This document shows, one piece after another, positions 224-36,465 of a stretch of 64,000 nucleotides of DNA (positions within the stretch are counted from its first letter, which is position 1; each line of letters starts with the position of its first letter). The position numbers and the translations under genes were made by a program. The notes below the pieces were generated by a model. That model was given only the letters and a program-made list of their open reading frames with translations, did not search any database and was not told where the DNA came from. The stretch is from Candidatus Gracilibacteria bacterium. Its GTDB lineage: Bacteria; Patescibacteriota; Gracilibacteria; BD1-5; UBA2023. Location of the stretch: the NCBI GenBank assembly GCA_028687475.1, contig JAQUAB010000001.1, forward strand, positions 434,001 through 498,000, in the 5' to 3' direction.

Positions 224-598
224 ATGTCTATCGCTCGTATCACAGAATCTCGCAAACGCTTCGTCGAACTTCTCGGTCAATCTCCGCGTATCACCTTCAC
301 CGATCTGAAGAAGGAACTCGTCGGAAAGAAATGACAACCAGGAATGAATCTTGCGACGCTCTATCGTATCGTCGATGCATTTCGTGATCAGGGACTCATC
401 CATGAGATGACGATTGCTTGAGAGCGTGTGATTTTCCCTTGCCAATGCGATCACGCAGAAAAAGATGACGCTATCACTATTAGCTTCTGCGAGAATTGTG
501 GTGCTATCTACGATGTCCATACCAAGCTCGCGAGTCCATATATTTCGAGTATCACGTATGCACATATGAAGTCTTGCAATGCCTGTGTTCTTCATTAA
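224..598 (+). CDS. Fur-family metal-dependent transcriptional regulator (first copy)
   Basis: A 124-residue winged-helix repressor of the Fur/Zur/PerR family. The N-terminal half carries the DNA-binding helix (ATLYRIVDAFRDQGLIHEM, about residues 45-63). The C-terminal half carries two CxxC pairs (CENC and CNAC) that in this family hold the structural zinc, plus an upstream CQCDH. Two glycines are encoded by TGA, one before the recognition helix. It lies upstream of dsbB and a second fur gene, in an island with zinc-type GTPase and transporters, so zinc or iron sensing is likely. Which metal cannot be told from sequence. No clear ribosome binding site precedes ATG 224; the family alignment supports this start. 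Confidence 0.88.
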
Positions 599-626
599 AA
601 AAATTTATTATTTCTCTCCATAAAAT

Positions 627-1178
627 ATGTCACTCGAACAATTCTCCCTCATCGTCGGAATCTGTCTCGTTATCGGGCAAGCAATATTCATTCTCGGATG
701 GTTTTTGTTTGCGGTTTCCAGCAAATTCCGAACGTGGATTTCTGGACTTTTCTCGCGCCAAGTCTGGACATTCCTCACCCTTCTCCTCATCGTCGGCTCT
801 ATCGGATGAAGCCTCATCTACTCGAATATCTATGAGCTCGCTGTCTGCGAATTCTGCTGGTATCAGCGCATGGCTATCTATCCACAGGCCATCATCCTCG
901 TAGTCGCGCTCTGGAAAAAAGAATATATTTCTGGAATCGTCAGTTCACTTGTTCTCTCAAGTATTGGAATCGTTCTCGCGGCATATCAATATAGTCTCAA
1001 TGTCCGAAAAATGCTCCATCCTGACACATTTTTCGCACCATGTGATGCAAGTGGAATCTCTTGTGCGGATGTTCCTATCGTGATTTTCGGCTATATCACG
1101 ATCCCATTCATGACGATAGCGATTCTCCTCCTCTCAATGACGACACTCTACTTCGCACTGAAGACGAAGAAGATATAA
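627..1178 (+). CDS. dsbB: DsbB/BdbC-type disulfide bond formation protein
   Basis: A 183-residue four-helix membrane quinone-linked thiol oxidase that reoxidises a periplasmic DsbA-type protein. The first external loop has the classical CxxC followed by WYQR (CEFCWYQRMAIYP, about residue 75), and the second loop has the partner cysteine pair (PCDASGISCADV). One TGA (807-809) encodes the glycine just before the first active loop. It follows fur after 28 bp and probably shares its transcript. No DsbA is visible in the window. Several cysteine-rich exported proteins here (7233, 22444) are plausible downstream substrates. Confidence 0.88.
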
Positions 1179-1184
1179 CAAAAT

Positions 1185-1211
1185 TTGCATTTGCAAAAAA
1201 ATGCATATTAT
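1185..1211 (+). promoter_or_regulatory. Promoter-like site with inverted repeat before second fur
   Basis: TTGCAT (1185-1190) and TATTAT (1206-1211) are 15 bp apart. They are embedded in TTTGCA-TT-TGCAAA and TGCA repeats that could act as a Fur-type operator. The regulatory role is inferred. Confidence 0.4.
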
Positions 1212-1213
1212 AT

Positions 1214-1233
1214 GCGGGTAACTCCCGCTTTTT
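1214..1233 (+). terminator. Short hairpin with T-run after dsbB
   Basis: GCGGG/CCCGC stem with a 5-nt loop followed by TTTTT, ending one base before ATG 1234. It can act as an intrinsic terminator for dsbB, or as a 5' leader hairpin of the second fur gene. Confidence 0.5.
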
Positions 1234-1581
1234 ATGATGTCCACAATTCACCAGCGCCACATCCTCGCATTTTTCGCAGAGAAGAAAATGCTCTCTTTTT
1301 CTGAACTCAAGACTCAGTTCATCGAGACGAAAGAGATGAATCAGACAACACTCTATCGTATCCTGGAACGATTTCTCGAAACTGGAAAAATCCACAAGGC
1401 AGAACTCAAGTGAGAAAAATATTTCGTCCTCTGTGAATGTCACAAAGAACAAGAAGAAGGAATAAAACTCCAATGCTGTAACCAGTGTCATTCTATCCAA
1501 GAACAGCACTTCCCGCTCGCACCCGATGCACTCCGAAGCGAGACGGTCGAATATCTGAAGTGTTGCGAAAAATGCAGATAA
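1234..1581 (+). CDS. Fur-family regulator (second copy, Zur-like)
   Basis: A 115-residue Fur-family protein with the usual order: helix-turn-helix (TTLYRILERFLETGKIHK) then a dimerisation domain with CECHKE, CCNQCH and a final CCEKCR. The two CxxC pairs are typical of zinc-site members. It sits 46 bp upstream of the G3E GTPase gene, an arrangement known for Zur-controlled COG0523 genes, so a zinc-uptake role is inferred. One TGA encodes a wing glycine. It is clearly divergent from the first Fur copy, so this is not a recent duplication. Confidence 0.85.
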
Positions 1582-1626
1582 CAGCGATCTAATTTTGAAT
1601 TTTATATCTCGAATTTTAATCCCTCT

Positions 1627-2571
1627 ATGATTCCTATCACCATTATTACCTGATTTCTCGGCAGTGGCAAAACCACGCTCCTGAATCATATCCTCACCTG
1701 AGATCACGGACTCCGGATTGCCGTTGTCGAGAATGAATTCGGCGAAACCAGTATCGATTCCAATCTCATCGAACGTTCGACCGAAGAGCTCATCGAGGTC
1801 TCGAACGGTTGCATGTGTTGTGTCGTGCGCAAGGATTGGATGGATGCTATCGAACGTCTTCTCGACTCAGGGAAACAAATCGATGCTATCATCATCGAAG
1901 CATCGGGTGCGAGCGAGCCACTTCCGATTGCGCAGTCATTTCTCATGAATGATATGTGAGGTCGCGTGAAGCTCGACTCTATCATCTGTCTCGTCGATGC
2001 ACTGAACTATGAACACCTCTTGCAGGCGCATCCAGATATTGCGCTCGATCAGCTCGAATTCGCCGATTTCGTAGTACTCAACAAGTGTGATCTCATCGAT
2101 AGCGAAAAGAAAAAACTCCTCCATACACTCATCCGCCGAGTAAATGCGTTCGCGCCGATTATCGAGGCAAGTCATGGAAAAGTCGATATCGATCTCCTCC
2201 TCTCGACGGGACGATTCAGCATGGAGAATCTTCGTGAAGAGAAAAAAGGACACGTGCATGGACACGAGAATCTCCAGGTTTTCTCCTACGTACCGAATGG
2301 AAAATTCAAAGCAAAAGAACTCGACGCTTTTCTCGAAGATCTCACCACTGACTGTTATCGGATAAAAGGATTCGTGGAGTTCACCGAACGCCCGAATGAG
2401 TGGTGGCTCATCCAGAAGGCTGGAGCCCGATTCACGATGGATCCATGGACTGGAGCAATCCCAGCAGAATCCCGCATCGTCTTCATCGGGAAAGATATGG
2501 ATGAATCTCTCATCCGGAAACTCCTCGATGAAACGACAGAAAATGGACGGTCGGTTTTGTTTGTGACATAA
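1627..2571 (+). CDS. CobW/COG0523 family G3E GTPase (putative zinc metallochaperone)
   Basis: A 314-residue P-loop GTPase of the SIMIBI G3E class. Walker A is GFLGSGKTT at the N-terminus with its first glycine encoded by TGA, one of the clearest proofs of recoding. The metal motif is NGCMCC (CxCC), the G4 motif is NKCD, and a histidine-rich stretch (HVHGHEN) leads into the CobW C-terminal domain. Family members deliver zinc to target enzymes under zinc limitation. Position after the second Fur and before a ZIP transporter supports zinc rather than cobalt or nickel; the exact client is unknown. Confidence 0.88.
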
Positions 2572-6299: not shown

Positions 6300-6318
6300 A
6301 GTATCTAGAAATGATGAC

Positions 6319-6951
6319 TTATTCGGAATAACTACTAGGAAATAAACTCTCAAATGACTTTCTAGCAGAACGTTGGAGTGATAGATAAGAAGCATTTCAT
6401 TGACTATAATTAAAGGTATCAATTATTGCAATTCCCTTTTCAGTAACCCCATGTTCTCATACAAAATAATGAAGAAATTCTCATGGACTCATCTTTACCG
6501 GTTTTCTCATTATTTTTTCAAGCCAACTGCGCATATCTTTTCCATCACTCCGTATTTCTTCCATAGAGTCTTTACTAAAAATATACCATCAAAGTCTAAC
6601 AAATGGATCATTGTCTACTTCATTTTTATCTTGTAGATAGTAACAAGTTACTCAAATAGATCGTGGTTTATTTTTCTGAACGAAATATTTTACCATTTCA
6701 GGAATTTTCTCTTGTATAATCTCGGAGTCTGCAACTCATGGGAATAATGATTCCCAGATTTCTCGGTCCATATCAAAGATTGTTGCAAAGAAATACATTT
6801 GATACTCGAAATCCACTTGTTCTTGATGAATAGATTCGATAGCATCAGAAATAGCATCATCTACCCTTCTTGCCAATCATTCTCGAGTTTCATTAACTAA
6901 TTGCTCAACTATACTCTGTCATGTAGGTTCCTGATTTACTTGCTCTAGCAT
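6319..6951 (-). CDS. Uncharacterised cytoplasmic protein, 210 residues
   Basis: Visible only under TGA = Gly: eight TGA codons punctuate a continuous frame from ATG 6951 to TAA 6319. The product is soluble, acidic at the N-terminus, with a probable amphipathic helix (about residues 20-45) followed by a mixed alpha/beta region rich in aromatic residues (FEYQMYFFATIFDMD). I recognise no family. Its own promoter (TTGACA, TATAAT) and a shared terminator bracket it, supporting a real gene. The high TGA density and AT-richer codons suggest a lowly expressed or accessory gene. Confidence 0.7.
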
Positions 6952-6977
6952 AAAGTAACTTTTAAAAATATGGAATC

Positions 6978-7004
6978 ATTATAATTCCATATTTCATTTG
7001 TCAA
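6978..7004 (-). promoter_or_regulatory. Promoter of the 6951 gene
   Basis: Perfect -35 TTGACA (6999-7004) and perfect -10 TATAAT (6978-6983) on the minus strand, separated by only 15 bp and 27 bp upstream of ATG 6951. The remainder of the 281-bp gap to 7233 is AT-rich with no gene visible. Confidence 0.65.
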
Positions 7005-7171
7005 ATTAATATTTTTATACGTAAACTGTTATTTCACCTCTATAAAAATCTGTTCCTTTATAAGAAAACCCTTCCATAACAAATAACACTCAAAATACAC
7101 TAAAAGATAGTATGTATACACACTATTATAAGAAGTACAATTGAAATATCATAATATACTGATTCAAATTT

Positions 7172-7200
7172 TTGCATTTCTCTCCTGATTGATGTAATAT
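7172..7200 (+). promoter_or_regulatory. Promoter of the pilin-like adhesin gene
   Basis: TTGCAT and TAATAT with a 17-bp spacer, 33 bp upstream of ATG 7233. Confidence 0.5.
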
Positions 7201-7232
7201 GCACAAGAATTTTTATTTATAATTTCTTTTTT

Positions 7233-9578
7233 ATGTTATTTTCACAGTATCTTTCCTCAAATCAAGGAATGATGGTAACAAAGAAAGCTTTCACTCTCAT
7301 TGAGCTCATGGTAGTCATAGCTATCATAGGAGTATTGGCTGCCGCACTCTATCCCCAGATTGGGAAATATGCGAGCAGAGGACGTGATGCTGGTCGTATC
7401 ACAGCAATTGCCAATATAGGAAGTGCTCTCGATAGCTCTCGTTTTGACTATGATGGGAAATACCCAGACCATGTCGGAGGATGTGTACCGATGAATATGT
7501 TGCTCACCAAAAAATATCTCATGACGGAAATCATCAGTCCAAGTGGAACAGGATACAATGAAGGATGTGGAAATAATGGACAATTCGGATATGGAAATCT
7601 CGGAATCGGAAGTGTGCTCATGGGAATAATGGAAAATGACTCTACAGGAAACTACACTGGTTCCACTGCTGGCTTCACAGGAACACTCACAAAAGAAGGA
7701 ATACTCAATACGCTCAATACAAAAAATGGAGCATGACGATATCATATTCGCCCAACAAATTATATTCTGAATAATGCGATTTTCTTATCTGAGTCAAGTG
7801 GTGTCTGTGGTACAGAAGCAAATACGTGTAAATCAGGAGTAGCAAAAGATTATATCGCTGCTTCCTGTGGTGGAACTGAGACTTGGAAATGTGCCGGAAG
7901 TCCTGGATCTATTGATGATAATTGTGAAGCTGTACGCGTTTGTTCGAGTGATGGAAATTGTGGTACAGCCGCTGGAACTCCAACTCCTATATATCCTACA
8001 TCGAATCTTTGTAGCATAGCATCTATGACCGCTACACCGAATGATACAACTGCAACAGATGGTATCTATAATTGGACTTGTGAAGGAATCAATGGTGGCG
8101 GAGCAGTACCTTGTAGTGCCGCAAAACAATATACGGTCACTTTCTATACCAATGGATGAACTCCTGTAGGAAATCAGAGTGTAGCATACAACTCAACTGC
8201 AACAGAACCATCACCAGCACCAACAAAAGATGGATATGTATTTGGTGGATGGTATAGTAATGATGCACTTACTTCAGGATGGAATTTTTCTACTCTGATT
8301 ACTGGCAATACTTCACTCTATGCAAAATGGGGACTTCATACCTATGGTGTCTCTGGAACATTTGGAGCCAATGGAGCTGGAGCAACAATAAATGGTTGTG
8401 GAAAAAGTACTACTGCAGATGCATCTGGGCATTTCTCATTTGGGTCTGTAGAAAGTGGTACTGCTTGTGATAATGTATCAGCTGTTCTTACTGGATATAC
8501 TTGTACCACTTCGAGACAAGGACCATCAAGTCTTTCTACAGATGTTACAGATATTGAAGGAAGTTGTACACCAGAAACAACTATGTGTATGATTGGACAC
8601 GATGCTCTTGATTCTGGCATTATTGGATCATGTATTATTGAATGTGGTATTGAAGGAGGAACGTGTGAGACAATGACATATACTGTCACTTTTAATACCA
8701 ATGGATGAACTCCTGTGACCGATCAGAATATAGCACAGTGAGCAAACGCAACAGAGCCATCACCAGCACCAACAAAAGACGGATATGTATTTGGTGGATG
8801 GTATAGTGATGCATGATTTACTTCAGGATGGAACTTTTCTACTCCAATTACTGGAAATACTTCACTCTATGCAAAATGGGATACAATCTCATACCCTCCA
8901 TCATGTTCGAATAGTATAAAAGATGGTGATGAGTTATGAGTAGATTGTGGAGGAAGTTGTCAAGAATGTAAGTATTCATTTACTCAAAGTGTGAAAGGAG
9001 CTGCCGCTAATAATAGTATACGATTCATTTCTCTTGGCGTGCACAATAATTGTGTCATCTCAAAAGTATGGTGAGATGTGACAGATCATACATCATATTA
9101 TATTATTGGGTCAGCATGAACTGAATGGACTATCGCTATTCTCGATGAATGAAATGCTTCCACAGCATATGCTGAGACAATATGTAATGATCTCAGTATT
9201 GGTGGAGAATCTTCTACAGAATGAAGTAGTTGTGGAGTATGAGGCTTATGAATCATGGTTTGATGATGTTGTTATGAAGGCACTTTTGTGAAGTATAATC
9301 CGCTCACTCCATTTCTAAAATGGTATCATGATGTTAACTGGAATGTGAGTAATAGTTGTGGGAATCAGTGGTGTTCTGATGTCTCTCTTCCATCTTGTGG
9401 CATTACAAAATCTCCATCTTTATGGCCTGTAAATTGTAATAATTGATTCCAAGACGGAGGTGAAACATGAGTAGACTGTGGAGGGGGTTGTCAAGCATGT
9501 TGAGGTGGATTGGGTGGAGGAGGAGATAGTGGGGGAGGAGATAGTGGAGGAGGAGATGTATGGATTCCTGGAGCGTAA
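7233..9578 (+). CDS. Giant pilin-like surface protein with InlB-type repeats
   Basis: 781 residues. The N-terminus is a type IV pilin/pseudopilin signal (KKAFTLIELMVVIAIIGVLA, cut expected before Phe20), so it should be processed by prepilin peptidase and anchored or assembled by the pilus machinery. After the pilin-like head (to about 165) come cysteine-rich spacers and two InlB B-type/Listeria-Bacteroides repeats (about 300-366 and 483-549, each with TVTF.TNGGTPV and GYVFGGWYS). Two Cys motifs of the form DGxExGVDCGGxCxxC (about 560 and 740) frame a lectin-like segment. The tail is glycine-rich (GGGDSGGGDS) and ends WIPGA. Many glycines are TGA. ATG 7272 would give the usual short leader and is an alternative start. 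Probably an adhesin. Confidence 0.78.
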
Positions 9579-9583
9579 AATAT

Positions 9584-10207
9584 CTAATTTACTTCTGTAA
9601 AGATCTGTTCTTTTGCAAAACGAACTTTCGGTCGTGGAGTTTCACTCGCATCACGGTATCCAAAAGGAATCATAGCAATTGCTTTCTGAGATTCTGGAAG
9701 TCCGAGAATCCCACCAACAGCAGATGAATCGAATCATTCCATCGGACATGAGTCAATCTGGAGTTCAGCAGCCGCAGCAAGTGCAAATCATTGCGCGATA
9801 TACGCTTGTTTTGATGTCCATGCGAGGATATCAGCAGGTTCTGATTTCCCTTCGATGAATCCATTCATCATATCTTCGAATCCTTTGAGTTTCGCACGAA
9901 CTTCTGGATTCCCACCAGACATGAGCGTGAAATATTCTTCTTTATTCTGCATGAGATCCGTGCGCGCAGCAAATATAATAAGGTGAGATGCTGTTCCGAC
10001 TTGTGATTGATTCCATGCAACTGCTTGGATTTTATCCTTCACTTCTTGATTCGTGACGATATAGAAATGGTATGGCTGAAGTCCATATGATGACGGCGCG
10101 AGACGAATCGCTTCGAGGATTTTCTCGAGATCAGCATCAGAAATCTTCTTTGTTACATCGAATTTCTTCGTTGCATAACGCCAGTTGAGATTGGAAAGAA
10201 AAGACAT
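9584..10207 (-). CDS. NAD(P)H-dependent nitroreductase (NfsB-like)
   Basis: 207-residue flavin oxidoreductase of the nitroreductase family, about the usual length. The N-terminal FMN-phosphate motif is present (NLNWRYATKKFD), followed by APSSYGLQPYHFYIV and the C-terminal IPFGYRDASETPRPKVR that closes the flavin site. It reduces quinones or nitroaromatics with NAD(P)H as an FMN dimer in the cytosol. Two TGA glycines occur (AYIAQG, MEGFD). The divergent HxlR-type regulator at 10370 is the probable controller, as in Bacillus YodB/HypR systems. The stop is only 5 bp from that of the pilin-like gene. Confidence 0.87.
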
Positions 10208-10369
10208 ATAAATCAATTTAAAAAATAAAGTGACTTGATATTATGCAAATATGAAGAAAATGCAAATAATTTTGCTTTAGAAAAGAAATGGAATATATTG
10301 TGTGGACAAAGTCTCGTACATATTGGAAATATGTCCGTAGAATTTCTTCAAGACCTTACAATTTCTCAT

Positions 10370-10672
10370 ATGGTTCGAAATCCTCAATGTGCATGTCCGA
10401 AAGCCCAAGCCCTCTTCACTCTCCTCGGAAAAAAGTGGATCATCTTCATCATGCAAGCGGTCGATAATGGTGCAACCACCTTCACAGAAATCGGGAAAGC
10501 CGTCGGATGAGCCAACACAAAAATCCTGACGGATCGACTCCATGAACTCGTTGAGTCAGGAATCCTCGAGAAAAATACAGAAAGTGGGAAATATATCCTC
10601 TCCCCTCTCGGGCAAGAACTCTCACATCGACTCATCGAACTCTCACACTGGTGGGGTGAACAGAAAAAATAG
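10370..10672 (+). CDS. HxlR-family winged-helix regulator (YodB/HypR-like)
   Basis: 100 residues. CPKAQALFTLLGKKWIIFIM is the family signature, with the N-terminal cysteine (two here, CAC) at the position of the redox-sensing Cys of YodB. The wing and recognition helix follow (FTEIGKAVGGANTKILTDRL, with one TGA glycine). Such proteins repress nitroreductase or azoreductase genes until a quinone, diamide or hypochlorite modifies the cysteine. It is divergent from the nitroreductase gene, which supports that role. Start choice is uncertain: the frame is open to 10235 and ATG 10331 would add 13 residues. Confidence 0.82.
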
Positions 10673-10691
10673 CATCAATTGATGCTATTTT
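10666..10691. terminator. Bidirectional terminator
   Basis: A near-perfect palindrome AAAATAGCATCA/TGATGCTATTTT overlapping the HxlR stop codon and the 3' end of the convergent small gene. It serves both strands. Confidence 0.75.
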
Positions 10692-10909
10692 TATTGCTTC
10701 TCAACAATTTCTTTGACTTTTCCTTCGAGAAGTTGTATTGCTTGCGATACTTGAATCCTTGCGAGTCCTTTCTCAAGTCGAAGTCAGTGACGAAGAAGTT
10801 CAACTTCTACTTGTATTCTTGATAATAATTGCTTACTATTTCTCTTTGTAACATTAGTAGCAATAAGAGCCTGAACTCCCGCGATTTTTACTTGGTTTCA
10901 TACATTCAT
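10691..10909 (-). CDS. Small helical protein, unrecognised
   Basis: 72 residues with two TGA glycines, hidden under the standard code. Basic and helical (AGVQALIATNVTKRNSKQLL, then LEKGLARIQVSQAIQLLEGK), without membrane segments; it looks like a short coiled-coil protein. It follows the serine hydrolase gene by 38 bp on the same strand and ends in a strong terminator, so it is probably the last gene of that operon. Confidence 0.55.
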
Positions 10910-32736: not shown

Positions 32737-35061
32737 TTATGAATTTTTTGGAACTTTGTAATATTCGAGCAAGTATTTCGCAATCTCAGAAAAAAGTGCC
32801 GATGATGTTGTCTCAGAATAGACAGAAGTACGTGGGCGATTCAGACTCACGATGAGCACGAATTTCGGATTATTCGCTGGAGCGAATCATCCATAAGAAG
32901 TGATAGTATGCCCCAGATCGGAATTCATGATACGGTTCTCATATCCTCATTTCATCGGAATTTGAGAAGTTCCTGTCTTTCCAGCAATGGTATATCCAGC
33001 AACTCATCCTTTTTTTGCGAAACCATTTTCTACACCATCTACTAACATAGCGACTACTTTCTTTGCTGTATCTTCCTTGATCACGCGACGAATTGGAGTC
33101 GGAATGGTATCTACCTTCTTTCCATCATTGTACTGGATAGATTCGACGATATATGGTTGCATATAGACACCTCCATTCGCGATCACAGAATATGCAGCTG
33201 CCATCTGAAGCATCGTCGCATTGATACCTTGACCGAACGACATAGTGAAGAACTGGGTTCGAGACCATTTCTCATATGGAGCAATCTGGGAATAATACTC
33301 TCCATCGAGCGTGATATTCGACTTCGCTCAGAATCCGAAATCACGAATATATTTATCGAAAAGTGATGGTCCAATCTTCTGGATAATATCAATCATACCA
33401 ACGTTACATGACCAATCGAGCGCATGCAGATACGTATGTCGGCCAGTACATTGGCTCGCCAAATTACTAATCTTGGTTGTTCCTCATCCATAATCAAGCT
33501 CAACATATCATTTATCATAATAGGTATCATCTGGATTTATTTCTCCTGTATCAATACCGATAGCTGTCGTGATTGCCTTGAATACAGAACCTGGTTCATA
33601 GAGGGCAGTAATAACATCATTCACATATACTCCAGCACCGTATTTATTTTTATACATATATTTTGGAATTGCTGGACTCTCTATCTCTATATCAGTCGCT
33701 TGCCTGAGGTTCAATCTTTTGCCATCAACATTCGCGAAAAATGCACCACTTGAAGTATCGATAACATAGAGATTTGTACCAAAAAGATCAAAACTCGGAT
33801 TCGGATATTTCATGTAATCTACTCGTTCCATCTCATATACATCCGTGAAGTTATTTGCATCATAGTCAGGATAATTCGCCATAGCAATGATTGCTCCTGT
33901 TTTTGGATTCATGACGATCACACTTCCCTTATTCGCACGATATTCTTCGACTGATTTTTGGAGCATAGCAGAAATCTGTTTTTGAATATTGCGATCAATT
34001 GTCAGATTCACATCAGCACCATTTTTGAGTGTGATGAAATCTTTTGAGACATATCCGCCAATCGGACGACCTGAACTATCTTTCGTCACAACTTGTGTCG
34101 GACTCTCTGATTGCAAAAGTTCATCGAAATATCACTCAACTCCATATTTCCCATTCCCTTCCCCATCGACGAAACCCGTAATCTGACTTGCAATATTTTG
34201 TTCTGGATAATATCGTACGAGATTATCTTCTATCTTGAGAAAATCATAAATAGAATCCTCCTTTTTTAATTGTTTACTATTGATAGCTAGTTTTTCGGCA
34301 TCCATTCTCTTGGTGATCGCATCACGAGTAGTCACACTCATCTTTCTGATAATTTCCAGATGTCGCTTTTTTCGTATTTCGAATTTTGGGAGCAATTCTT
34401 CTTGTGTTTTTCCGAGTGCAAGAGAAAGTCGGGCTACCAATTCTGCTTTATTTTGGACTTTTGTTGGATTGAGATAGAGATTATTGGAGACAAAATAGAG
34501 TGCAGAATCTTGCCAATCATCTATTTTCTGAATCACATCTTCCGCCAGAGTATCGGCTACGCTGACACTTTCGATTGGTGCATCCATTTTAGTGAGAAGA
34601 TAGAGACGGATTTTCTCCTTCATCTCTGTCACGGTCATATCAGCACGAGTCGAAAAATCTTCTCGTAGATATGAACTCATATTCGAGAGACACTCCGAAG
34701 TGTTTCGGCAAAACTCGTCGAATACTACATCGGTCAAAAACGAAAGTAGCTTGTCTCGAGAACCCGACTGGGATGGGTCTATAGCGAGATTTCCGAGATT
34801 GGTCGATACTGCCAATGCACCATGCAATGAATCATCAGAAGAAAAAATCGATCCACGAGACGCAGGATTTCTGAGTATCATTGTTTGCTGATCTTTCGCT
34901 TTCTGTGCATAGAATGCATGATGAATGACTGTGAAACTAAACGCAGTAAAGAGAAGGAGCAGTATATATGCAATTGCAATATACCAAATAATCCCAATCC
35001 TATCGAGTGAACGAAAATAACGATAGAGAAAATTGATCAGATGTTCAAGGGAAAATTTCAT
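32737..35061 (-). CDS. Penicillin-binding protein, monofunctional transpeptidase (FtsI/PBP2 type)
   Basis: 774 residues. One N-terminal membrane helix (IGIIWYIAIAYILLLLFTAF), a dimerisation/pedestal region, then the transpeptidase with all three motifs: SxxK in YEPGSVFKAIT (Ser about 490), SxN in WSCNVG (about 548) and KTG in AGKTGTSQIP (about 696). It cross-links peptidoglycan at division or elongation. TGA encodes several loop glycines, for example before YVELDYG and before VAGYTIAG. Its stop sits within the terminator shared with the sortase unit. Confidence 0.9.
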
Positions 35062-35095: not shown

Positions 35096-35941
35096 CTATT
35101 GTGGAAAAATCTGGAAATCACGAAATTTCGCAAAAAGCTCAAGCGTCGGAGTAGAAGTGATAATCGTGATGTGAAATTGTCACTGATCAGCAAGGATACG
35201 AAGAATATCGAGATTCCGAATACGATGAGGATATTGATAATCCTCATCTCAGAATGCGTCTTCTATATAGTAAATCTGCTGGTACTGCGCGAGATTATAA
35301 TAAAGAAGTCTCCGAGTTCAAACTATTATTTTCTCTTTTCAACCATATATATTCATCCACTGTTTTGCCTTGTGAACTGGTGTCGAATCCGTGAGAACTC
35401 GTGAGGAAATCGGAAGCATATCTCATACAAGCGAAAAGAGAAAAAAGTCGTCAGGAAAAAGAAATGCACTTCCCGATTGGAAGTATTTCTCGATATCTGA
35501 AGTGGAAAAAGCATGACTCGTATAATGGTGAATCTGATATTTTCGTCGTATTTCAGAAGGTTCTGGAATCGCAGTATTTGTTTCGATTATATAGTTTTTC
35601 TTATCCAGACGACTCAGGAGTGGTACTGGTAGAAAGATACGAAGCACCTTGTGAAGGGGTATGAAGTATTGTCGAGCTATAGCAAGAATCATGGAAATCT
35701 GATATTCCTCCAAGAGCGGGATACTCGCAATCACTGATATCACTGGTCGCAATGATCCAATATCTGTCGATACAGGAACTTCCTCGAGAATCTCAGACAC
35801 AATTCCTTGTTCGATATTATTTCCAAAAGGAATCTCCACAAGACACCCAACTTGTATCTGTTCTTGCCAGTCTGAGTGGACAAAATACGTGAAAGGTTCG
35901 AGAGAAATCGTGTGCGAGAATGGAATAACAGAAATATACAT
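35096..35941 (-). CDS. Truncated PriA-like primosomal protein, probably without helicase activity
   Basis: 281 residues against more than 700 in normal PriA. The N-terminal 3'-end-binding domain is recognisable (VIPFSHTISLEPFTYFVHSD, GCLVEIPFGN, QGIVSEI). The following domain keeps landmarks of the helicase fold: KIIVGTRRLLYYNL for the VVGTRSALF region and TIITSTPTLELF for the SATPSLES region. The Walker A lysine motif is absent, the DEEH box is replaced by YYIEDAFGDED, and the C-terminal helicase and zinc parts are missing. The frame ends cleanly at TAG, with several TGA glycines. It may load or block a partner at forks rather than unwind DNA. Confidence 0.72.
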
Positions 35942-35985: not shown

Positions 35986-36465
35986 TTAGAGTCCAAGAGA
36001 CTTCTTGAGGTCTTCAGCTTTTTGTGCATCTTCGTTGGCTTTTGCATTTGCTTTTTCTTCTTCGGTATAGATATCCTTGAGTTGTTCCCATTCATTCTGA
36101 GCTTTGATAACGAGACCCTTGATAATCTCCCCTTCTGTTGGCATGAGCTTGCGAAATTCGACACGCTCATCTTCGAATACCTTGACCAGCTCATCAACTT
36201 GGAACTGAGAAAGCGTCGGAATCGCATCGATGACACGTTTCTTCTCGAAAGTTGAAAGTGAGAGGGAATGTTCGAGAAGATCCATGAAAGCTTGTTCTGC
36301 GAATGTCGTGAGTGGATGAACAAGAAATCGCTGGAAAATCGTATCATTCGAAGTCTTCGGACGTGGCGGAGGTGGTGGTGGAACTGGGGCTTGTCCGCCA
36401 GCTGGAGGTACTGGAGGATTTGTTTCTGCAGGAACACCAGCTGTATCGTCAGTAGGAGTAGTCAT
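35986..36465 (-). CDS. Proline-rich helical protein, unrecognised
   Basis: 159 residues. Residues 1-36 are Pro/Ala/Thr-rich (PPVPPAGGQAPVPPPPPPRP), suggesting a disordered tether. The rest is helical and acidic, ending with KANEDAQKAEDLKKSLGL. No TGA codon. Between yebC and the PriA-like gene, with its own terminator. No family recognised. Confidence 0.62.
   Translation of the reverse strand: MTTPTDDTAGVPAETNPPVPPAGGQAPVPPPPPPRPKTSNDTIFQRFLVHPLTTFAEQAFMDLLEHSLSLSTFEKKRVIDAIPTLSQFQVDELVKVFEDERVEFRKLMPTEGEIIKGLVIKAQNEWEQLKDIYTEEEKANAKANEDAQKAEDLKKSLGL

Follow-up and report, generated by a model that had tools for sequence, protein, structure and literature searches.

PriA divided between two genes and stripped of its ATPase motifs in a Candidatus Gracilibacteria bacterium: a probable two-chain pseudohelicase

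PriA in this Candidatus Gracilibacteria genome is split between two genes, priA-N and priA-C. Our comparison of the gene sequences demonstrates that priA-N has no Walker A or DEEH motif, that priA-C has no motif V or motif VI and that both genes are retained under selection. Judging from these sequences, it is probable that the two products form a two-subunit PriA pseudohelicase that would recognize forks and pass them to DnaB without ATP. The first gene lies in the window, by which we mean the whole 64,000-nucleotide stretch analysed (G000:C1:434001-498000), taken from a genome (G000) of 1.056 Mb in five contigs.

Results

Reading frame and domains of priA-N

Under genetic code table 11, many frames in the window are interrupted by TGA, and the minus-strand frame at 35096-35941 ends at a TGA and yields only 172 aa (35423-35941). 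Under table 25 it runs to 281 aa, with five in-frame TGA codons and a terminal TAG at 35096-35098. Decoding of TGA as glycine fits the sequences of the window's group: a conserved segment of RpoB from 30 genomes contained 190 TGA codons on conserved columns (conservation of 80% or more among rows free of TGA), and the column was a glycine column for 187 of these. The clean stop described in an earlier, sequence-only reading of this DNA is the TAG that closes the 281-aa frame once TGA is read as glycine. A chance match or a wrong frame was ruled out by this frame, by a Pfam domain match and by the presence of the gene in relatives (Table 1).

That match, of PF17764 (PriA_3primeBD) to residues 15-105 (E=5.7e-16), bears out the proposal of an N-terminal 3'-DNA-binding domain (3'BD). 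The rest of the protein aligns weakly but colinearly with PriA models (NF004069, residues 189-277), and sequence matches to solved PriA chains are faint for the remainder after the 3'BD. Comparison of a profile of 25 short forms with one of 11 intact N-halves gave a full-length alignment (probability 100%, E=1.2e-43) in which the segment missing from the dead forms was the P-loop. Where dead N-halves retain GTR, Arg or Lys replaces the serine that follows it. The sequence-only reading was also right about echoes of helicase blocks, with IIVGTRRLLY and ITSTPTLELF aligning with IIIGTRSALF and LASGTPSI of intact forms, and about the absence of ATPase motifs, priA-N having neither Walker A nor DEEH. 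Relative to PriA, the spacer between the 3'BD and lobe 1 appears from its length to be too short for a winged-helix domain; an intact, fused PriA from a relative has a short spacer too. AlphaFold2 prediction for the protein alone (P0001) had a mean pLDDT of 35 and gave no usable structure model.

Table 1. Positions in the window of priA-N, its parts and the gene downstream
Feature	Position	Strand
Class B penicillin-binding protein (PBP) gene, constant downstream neighbour of priA-N in families f1 and f3	32737..35061	minus
priA-N, 281-aa N-terminal half of split PriA, five TGA = glycine, stop TAG	35096..35941	minus
3'-DNA-binding domain, residues 15-105, PF17764	35627..35899	minus
Degenerate helicase lobe 1, approximately residues 157-277; preceding P-loop segment missing	35111..35473	minus
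GTRRLLYYNL, corresponding to GTRSALFYPY of intact relatives	35291..35320	minus
YIEDAF, where the DEEH motif was lost	35252..35269	minus

The second half of PriA

The C-terminal half, noted earlier as missing, is indeed not in the priA-N gene but is encoded elsewhere in the same genome. This second gene, priA-C, is located beyond the window, at G000:C5:67841-68821 (L036:4842-5822, minus strand), and encodes 326 aa. A TIGR00595 search of the genome matched G000:C5:67853-68815 over profile positions 165-502 (E=4.7e-53), and the protein itself matched positions 171-488 (E=6.9e-53), a stretch of PriA that begins past lobe 1 and stops shortly before the end; its match to solved PriA had E=1.7e-26. 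It carries four CxxC pairs (eight zinc-type cysteines) and a conserved YPPY. PF18319 scored 24.7 bits, just under the cut-off of 26, and PF18074 (PriA_C) gave E=0.048, far under the cut-off, which it exceeds in 14/59 relatives. By homology, priA-C supplies the Cys-rich region of PriA with its zinc cysteines, together with lobe 2 and the C-terminal region.

The two genes together preserve the part order of PriA (TIGR00595, primosomal protein N'), namely 3'BD, lobe 1, Cys-rich region, lobe 2 and C-terminal region, and match the solved PriA chains 4nl4, 6dgd and 8fak in sequence; however, PriA is one chain, whereas here the parts are spread over two unlinked genes with no Walker A, DEEH, motif V or GRxGR. 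A fused or full-length priA was not found in G000 by PF17764 and TIGR00595 searches, where priA-N was the sole PF17764 match and the C-half the sole strong TIGR00595 match. The halves are on contigs C1 and C5 in G000; they are separated by approximately 535 kb in G043, a genome assembled as one contig, and by approximately 179 kb on contig C3 of G010. These separations on long contigs, with recurrence of the split in dozens of genomes, led us to reject a frameshifted or misassembled single gene. The neighbours of priA-C in G000 encode an MFS transporter (L036 3138-4832, plus strand) and a bacterial alpha-2-macroglobulin (6303-10898, minus strand).

Live and dead forms among relatives

When the priA-N protein was used to search 59 genomes, 54 of them, G000 included, yielded the N-half; it was not found in G014, G021, G032 (99% complete), G052 or G055. 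TIGR00595 detected the C-half in 57/59, the exceptions being G022 and G025. Both halves were present in 52 of the 59 genomes and only one in the other seven, with no fused PriA among the matches listed for these relatives. The short form is thus shared by relatives, and priA-N is a conserved gene.

Families, with their loci read under table 25, differed in motif state. Walker A and DEEH were absent from all 25 N-halves read from f1 (the window's family) and f3; 26 such loci were fetched and one was left out because its frame is broken at 110 aa (L027, G017). The 22 C-halves from f1 and f3 all lacked GRxGR (motif VI) and all kept at least four CxxC. Strings with the motif V pattern occurred in three of these (L040, L045 and L055), by eye away from the motif V place. 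In f2, a family of the same order as f1, Walker A, DEEH and GTRS were present in 12/12 N-halves (G057 and several other f2 N-halves are outside this count), and a GRxxR-type motif VI and a TGF[DN]-kind motif V were present in 10/10 C-halves read. At least four CxxC were found in all 32 C-halves of the three families. Motif state was concordant in every one of the 30 genomes in which both halves were read (21 dead/dead, nine live/live), but these genomes represent only a few clades and the number of independent events is therefore small. One N-half (L029 of G054; 511-1866, minus strand) carries an in-frame DUF559 (PF04480, residues 150-252, E=9.7e-30) between the 3'BD and lobe 1 of an otherwise intact PriA N-half.

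Selection and covariation

Ka/Ks was 0.08-0.20 for dead N-halves (7/9 pairs; two saturated) and 0.05-0.11 for dead C-halves (4/7 pairs; three saturated), these ratios being approximate because Ks exceeded 1 throughout. Distances for the N- and C-halves were correlated across 16 f1 genomes (r=0.84; partial r=0.65 given RpoB, 0/5000 permutations) and across nine f2 genomes (partial 0.61, 29/5000 permutations). RpoB evolves much more slowly than either half, so it is a weak control and the covariation is weak evidence for a complex. Dead N-halves evolve fast, with a mean distance of 1.62 in f1 versus 0.83 in f2.

Neighbours of priA-N

The same class B PBP gene follows the N-half in 25/25 other f1 and f3 N loci; no copy turned up in the flanks fetched for 12 f2 N loci. 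Fifteen loci combine an unbroken N frame with a PBP alignment that begins at residue 1, and among them the spacing ranges from a 17-base overlap to 43 bases in 14 and is 109 bases in L022. Co-transcription of cell-wall and restart functions through priA-N and the PBP gene is possible. Just upstream of priA-N, at 35986-36465 (minus strand), is a gene for a 159-aa protein without a Pfam match, the last 123 residues of which are 67-91% identical in eight relatives, far above the conservation of priA-N.

PriA in the wider class and phylum

Fused PriA, defined as a single match that starts at profile position 1 or 2 and extends to 436 or beyond, was present in 70 of 145 genomes sampled from the class, none of them in f1, f2, f3 or f13. 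Family f13 lies outside the order; there the C-half was found in 21/22 sampled genomes and the N-half, which Pfam missed and which was detected by profile comparison (probability 95%) and a family search, in 37/40 members searched. None of the five f13 C-halves read had GRxGR and none of the eight N-halves had Walker A or DEEH, so that by its sequences a second order also has a dead split pair. A genome of f5 with the standard code (G060) has a split PriA with intact motifs in both halves. In f11 (G066) an apparent split, also with intact motifs, may be a recent break or an assembly fault, because the C-half frame begins about where the N-half frame ends.

Fused but dead PriA also occurs: all eight genes read from f6, f7, f17 and f21 lacked Walker A, DEEH and GRxGR by pattern. 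A TIGR00595 match at E 1e-22 was obtained for 118 of 239 genomes sampled from the phylum and not for the other 121; 68 matches start at position 1 or 2 and extend to 444 or further. In 31/239 a single match starts at position 11-29, after the P-loop, and reaches at least 419, which is the pattern seen in the dead fused genes. On this profile evidence, many members of the phylum seem to have lost the PriA motor. Matches to the C-half only, with frames of 312-382 aa, were seen in four genomes of other families (G327, G210, G186 and G205) and suggest further independent splits.

Discussion

Under the pseudohelicase model, the two chains would come together along the former lobe 1/lobe 2 interface, restoring the fork-binding body of PriA, with the 3'BD contributed by priA-N and the zinc region and C-terminal domain (CTD) by priA-C. 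This body would recognize abandoned forks without ATP hydrolysis and hold the lagging strand in place for DnaB; unwinding would be driven by the motor of DnaB itself. Precedents are available for several of these steps. In a study of Escherichia coli PriA, the 3'BD, CTD and helicase lobe 1 are described as touching the fork and the Cys-rich region as binding PriB, ATPase-dead PriA loads DnaB in assays, and PriA-PriB restart in vivo is said not to need the ATPase (PMC10175261). Likewise, a report on Deinococcus radiodurans describes a PriA without ATPase that nevertheless binds fork DNA and DnaB (PMC4504706). DnaB, whose gene in the window's genome lies at G000:C1:53132-53887, was found in 30/30 relatives searched, and this, with the binding of DnaB by the D. 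radiodurans protein (PMC4504706), makes recruitment of another helicase by priA-N plausible.

Such recruitment was part of the earlier proposal that priA-N is a domesticated adaptor. The proposal holds in so far as this is a conserved PriA-derived protein without ATPase, and fails in having it stand alone; since a second gene holds the remaining PriA, priA-N is better called a subunit of a two-gene PriA. A version in which priA-N acts by itself as a 3'-end-binding adaptor, and priA-C does something else as an independent protein, would account for the lack of linkage, the seven of 59 genomes with one half only and the conserved gene order peculiar to priA-N. We regard it as unlikely, because catalysis has been lost from both halves in the same families, the halves co-occur in 52/59 genomes and the f2 halves are complementary parts of one ATPase site, an arrangement that is sensible only if they meet. 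A complex of the two halves with some task other than restart, such as a link to division through the neighbouring PBP, draws on the constancy of that neighbour in f1 and f3; we consider this very improbable, as the parts retained, a DNA-binding domain and a zinc region, are those needed for fork binding.

Slightly less credible again is that both halves are decaying remnants, restart being achieved by another route or dispensable in small genomes. Loss of the ATPase motifs, fast evolution of the N-half and the 121/239 phylum genomes without a TIGR00595 match are what decay would predict, but the frames are open, Ka/Ks is well below 1, the zinc cysteines are conserved in 22/22 f1 and f3 C-halves and the halves are present in most genomes of two orders. 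Rate covariation and the fixed order of genes, like the low Ka/Ks, speak against decay. Extending the pseudohelicase model, the PriA of this clade may be an obligate two-subunit machine, with f2 as a live two-lobe intermediate and the window's family having an ATP-free fork platform whose N subunit is co-transcribed with a transpeptidase; we put this fuller scheme at a little below an even chance. If the N subunit does belong to a cell-wall transpeptidase transcription unit, fork restart and division may be co-expressed.

A helicase-less PriA without usable helicase motifs is also found in Actinobacteria, but as a single chain. The PriA pseudohelicase of D. radiodurans has likewise been kept after losing its ATPase motifs; it is a single chain in which the Walker A Lys has become Arg, whereas here the protein is split and the P-loop and motif VI are wholly gone (PMC4504706). 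We found no report of a split PriA in the open-access literature, although papers behind subscription could have been missed. Thus, helicase-dead PriA was already known from D. radiodurans, and a split helicase-dead PriA is, as far as we could find, an unreported variant.

That ATPase-dead E. coli PriA still supports restart raises the question of what the motor does. The class offers PriA that is fused or split and, in each case, intact or dead; with these four states the contributions of the motor and of chain continuity become testable with natural proteins. The f2 form, an intact helicase with its lobes on separate polypeptides, would offer an uncommon opportunity to examine how the two lobes come together. 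There are also consequences for annotation, as treatment of TGA as a stop would truncate these priA genes and searches for full-length PriA would score replication restart as absent here.

In an RpoB tree of 30 genomes, rooted only at the midpoint, a branch with support of 100/98 separated f1, f2, f3 and f13 from f15, in which TGA is glycine and PriA is intact and fused. The placement of f15 apart from the other families that read TGA as glycine reflects either two origins of the code or an artefact of the tree. One f15 genome (G070; L086 and L124) combines heavy use of TGA as glycine with an intact fused PriA.
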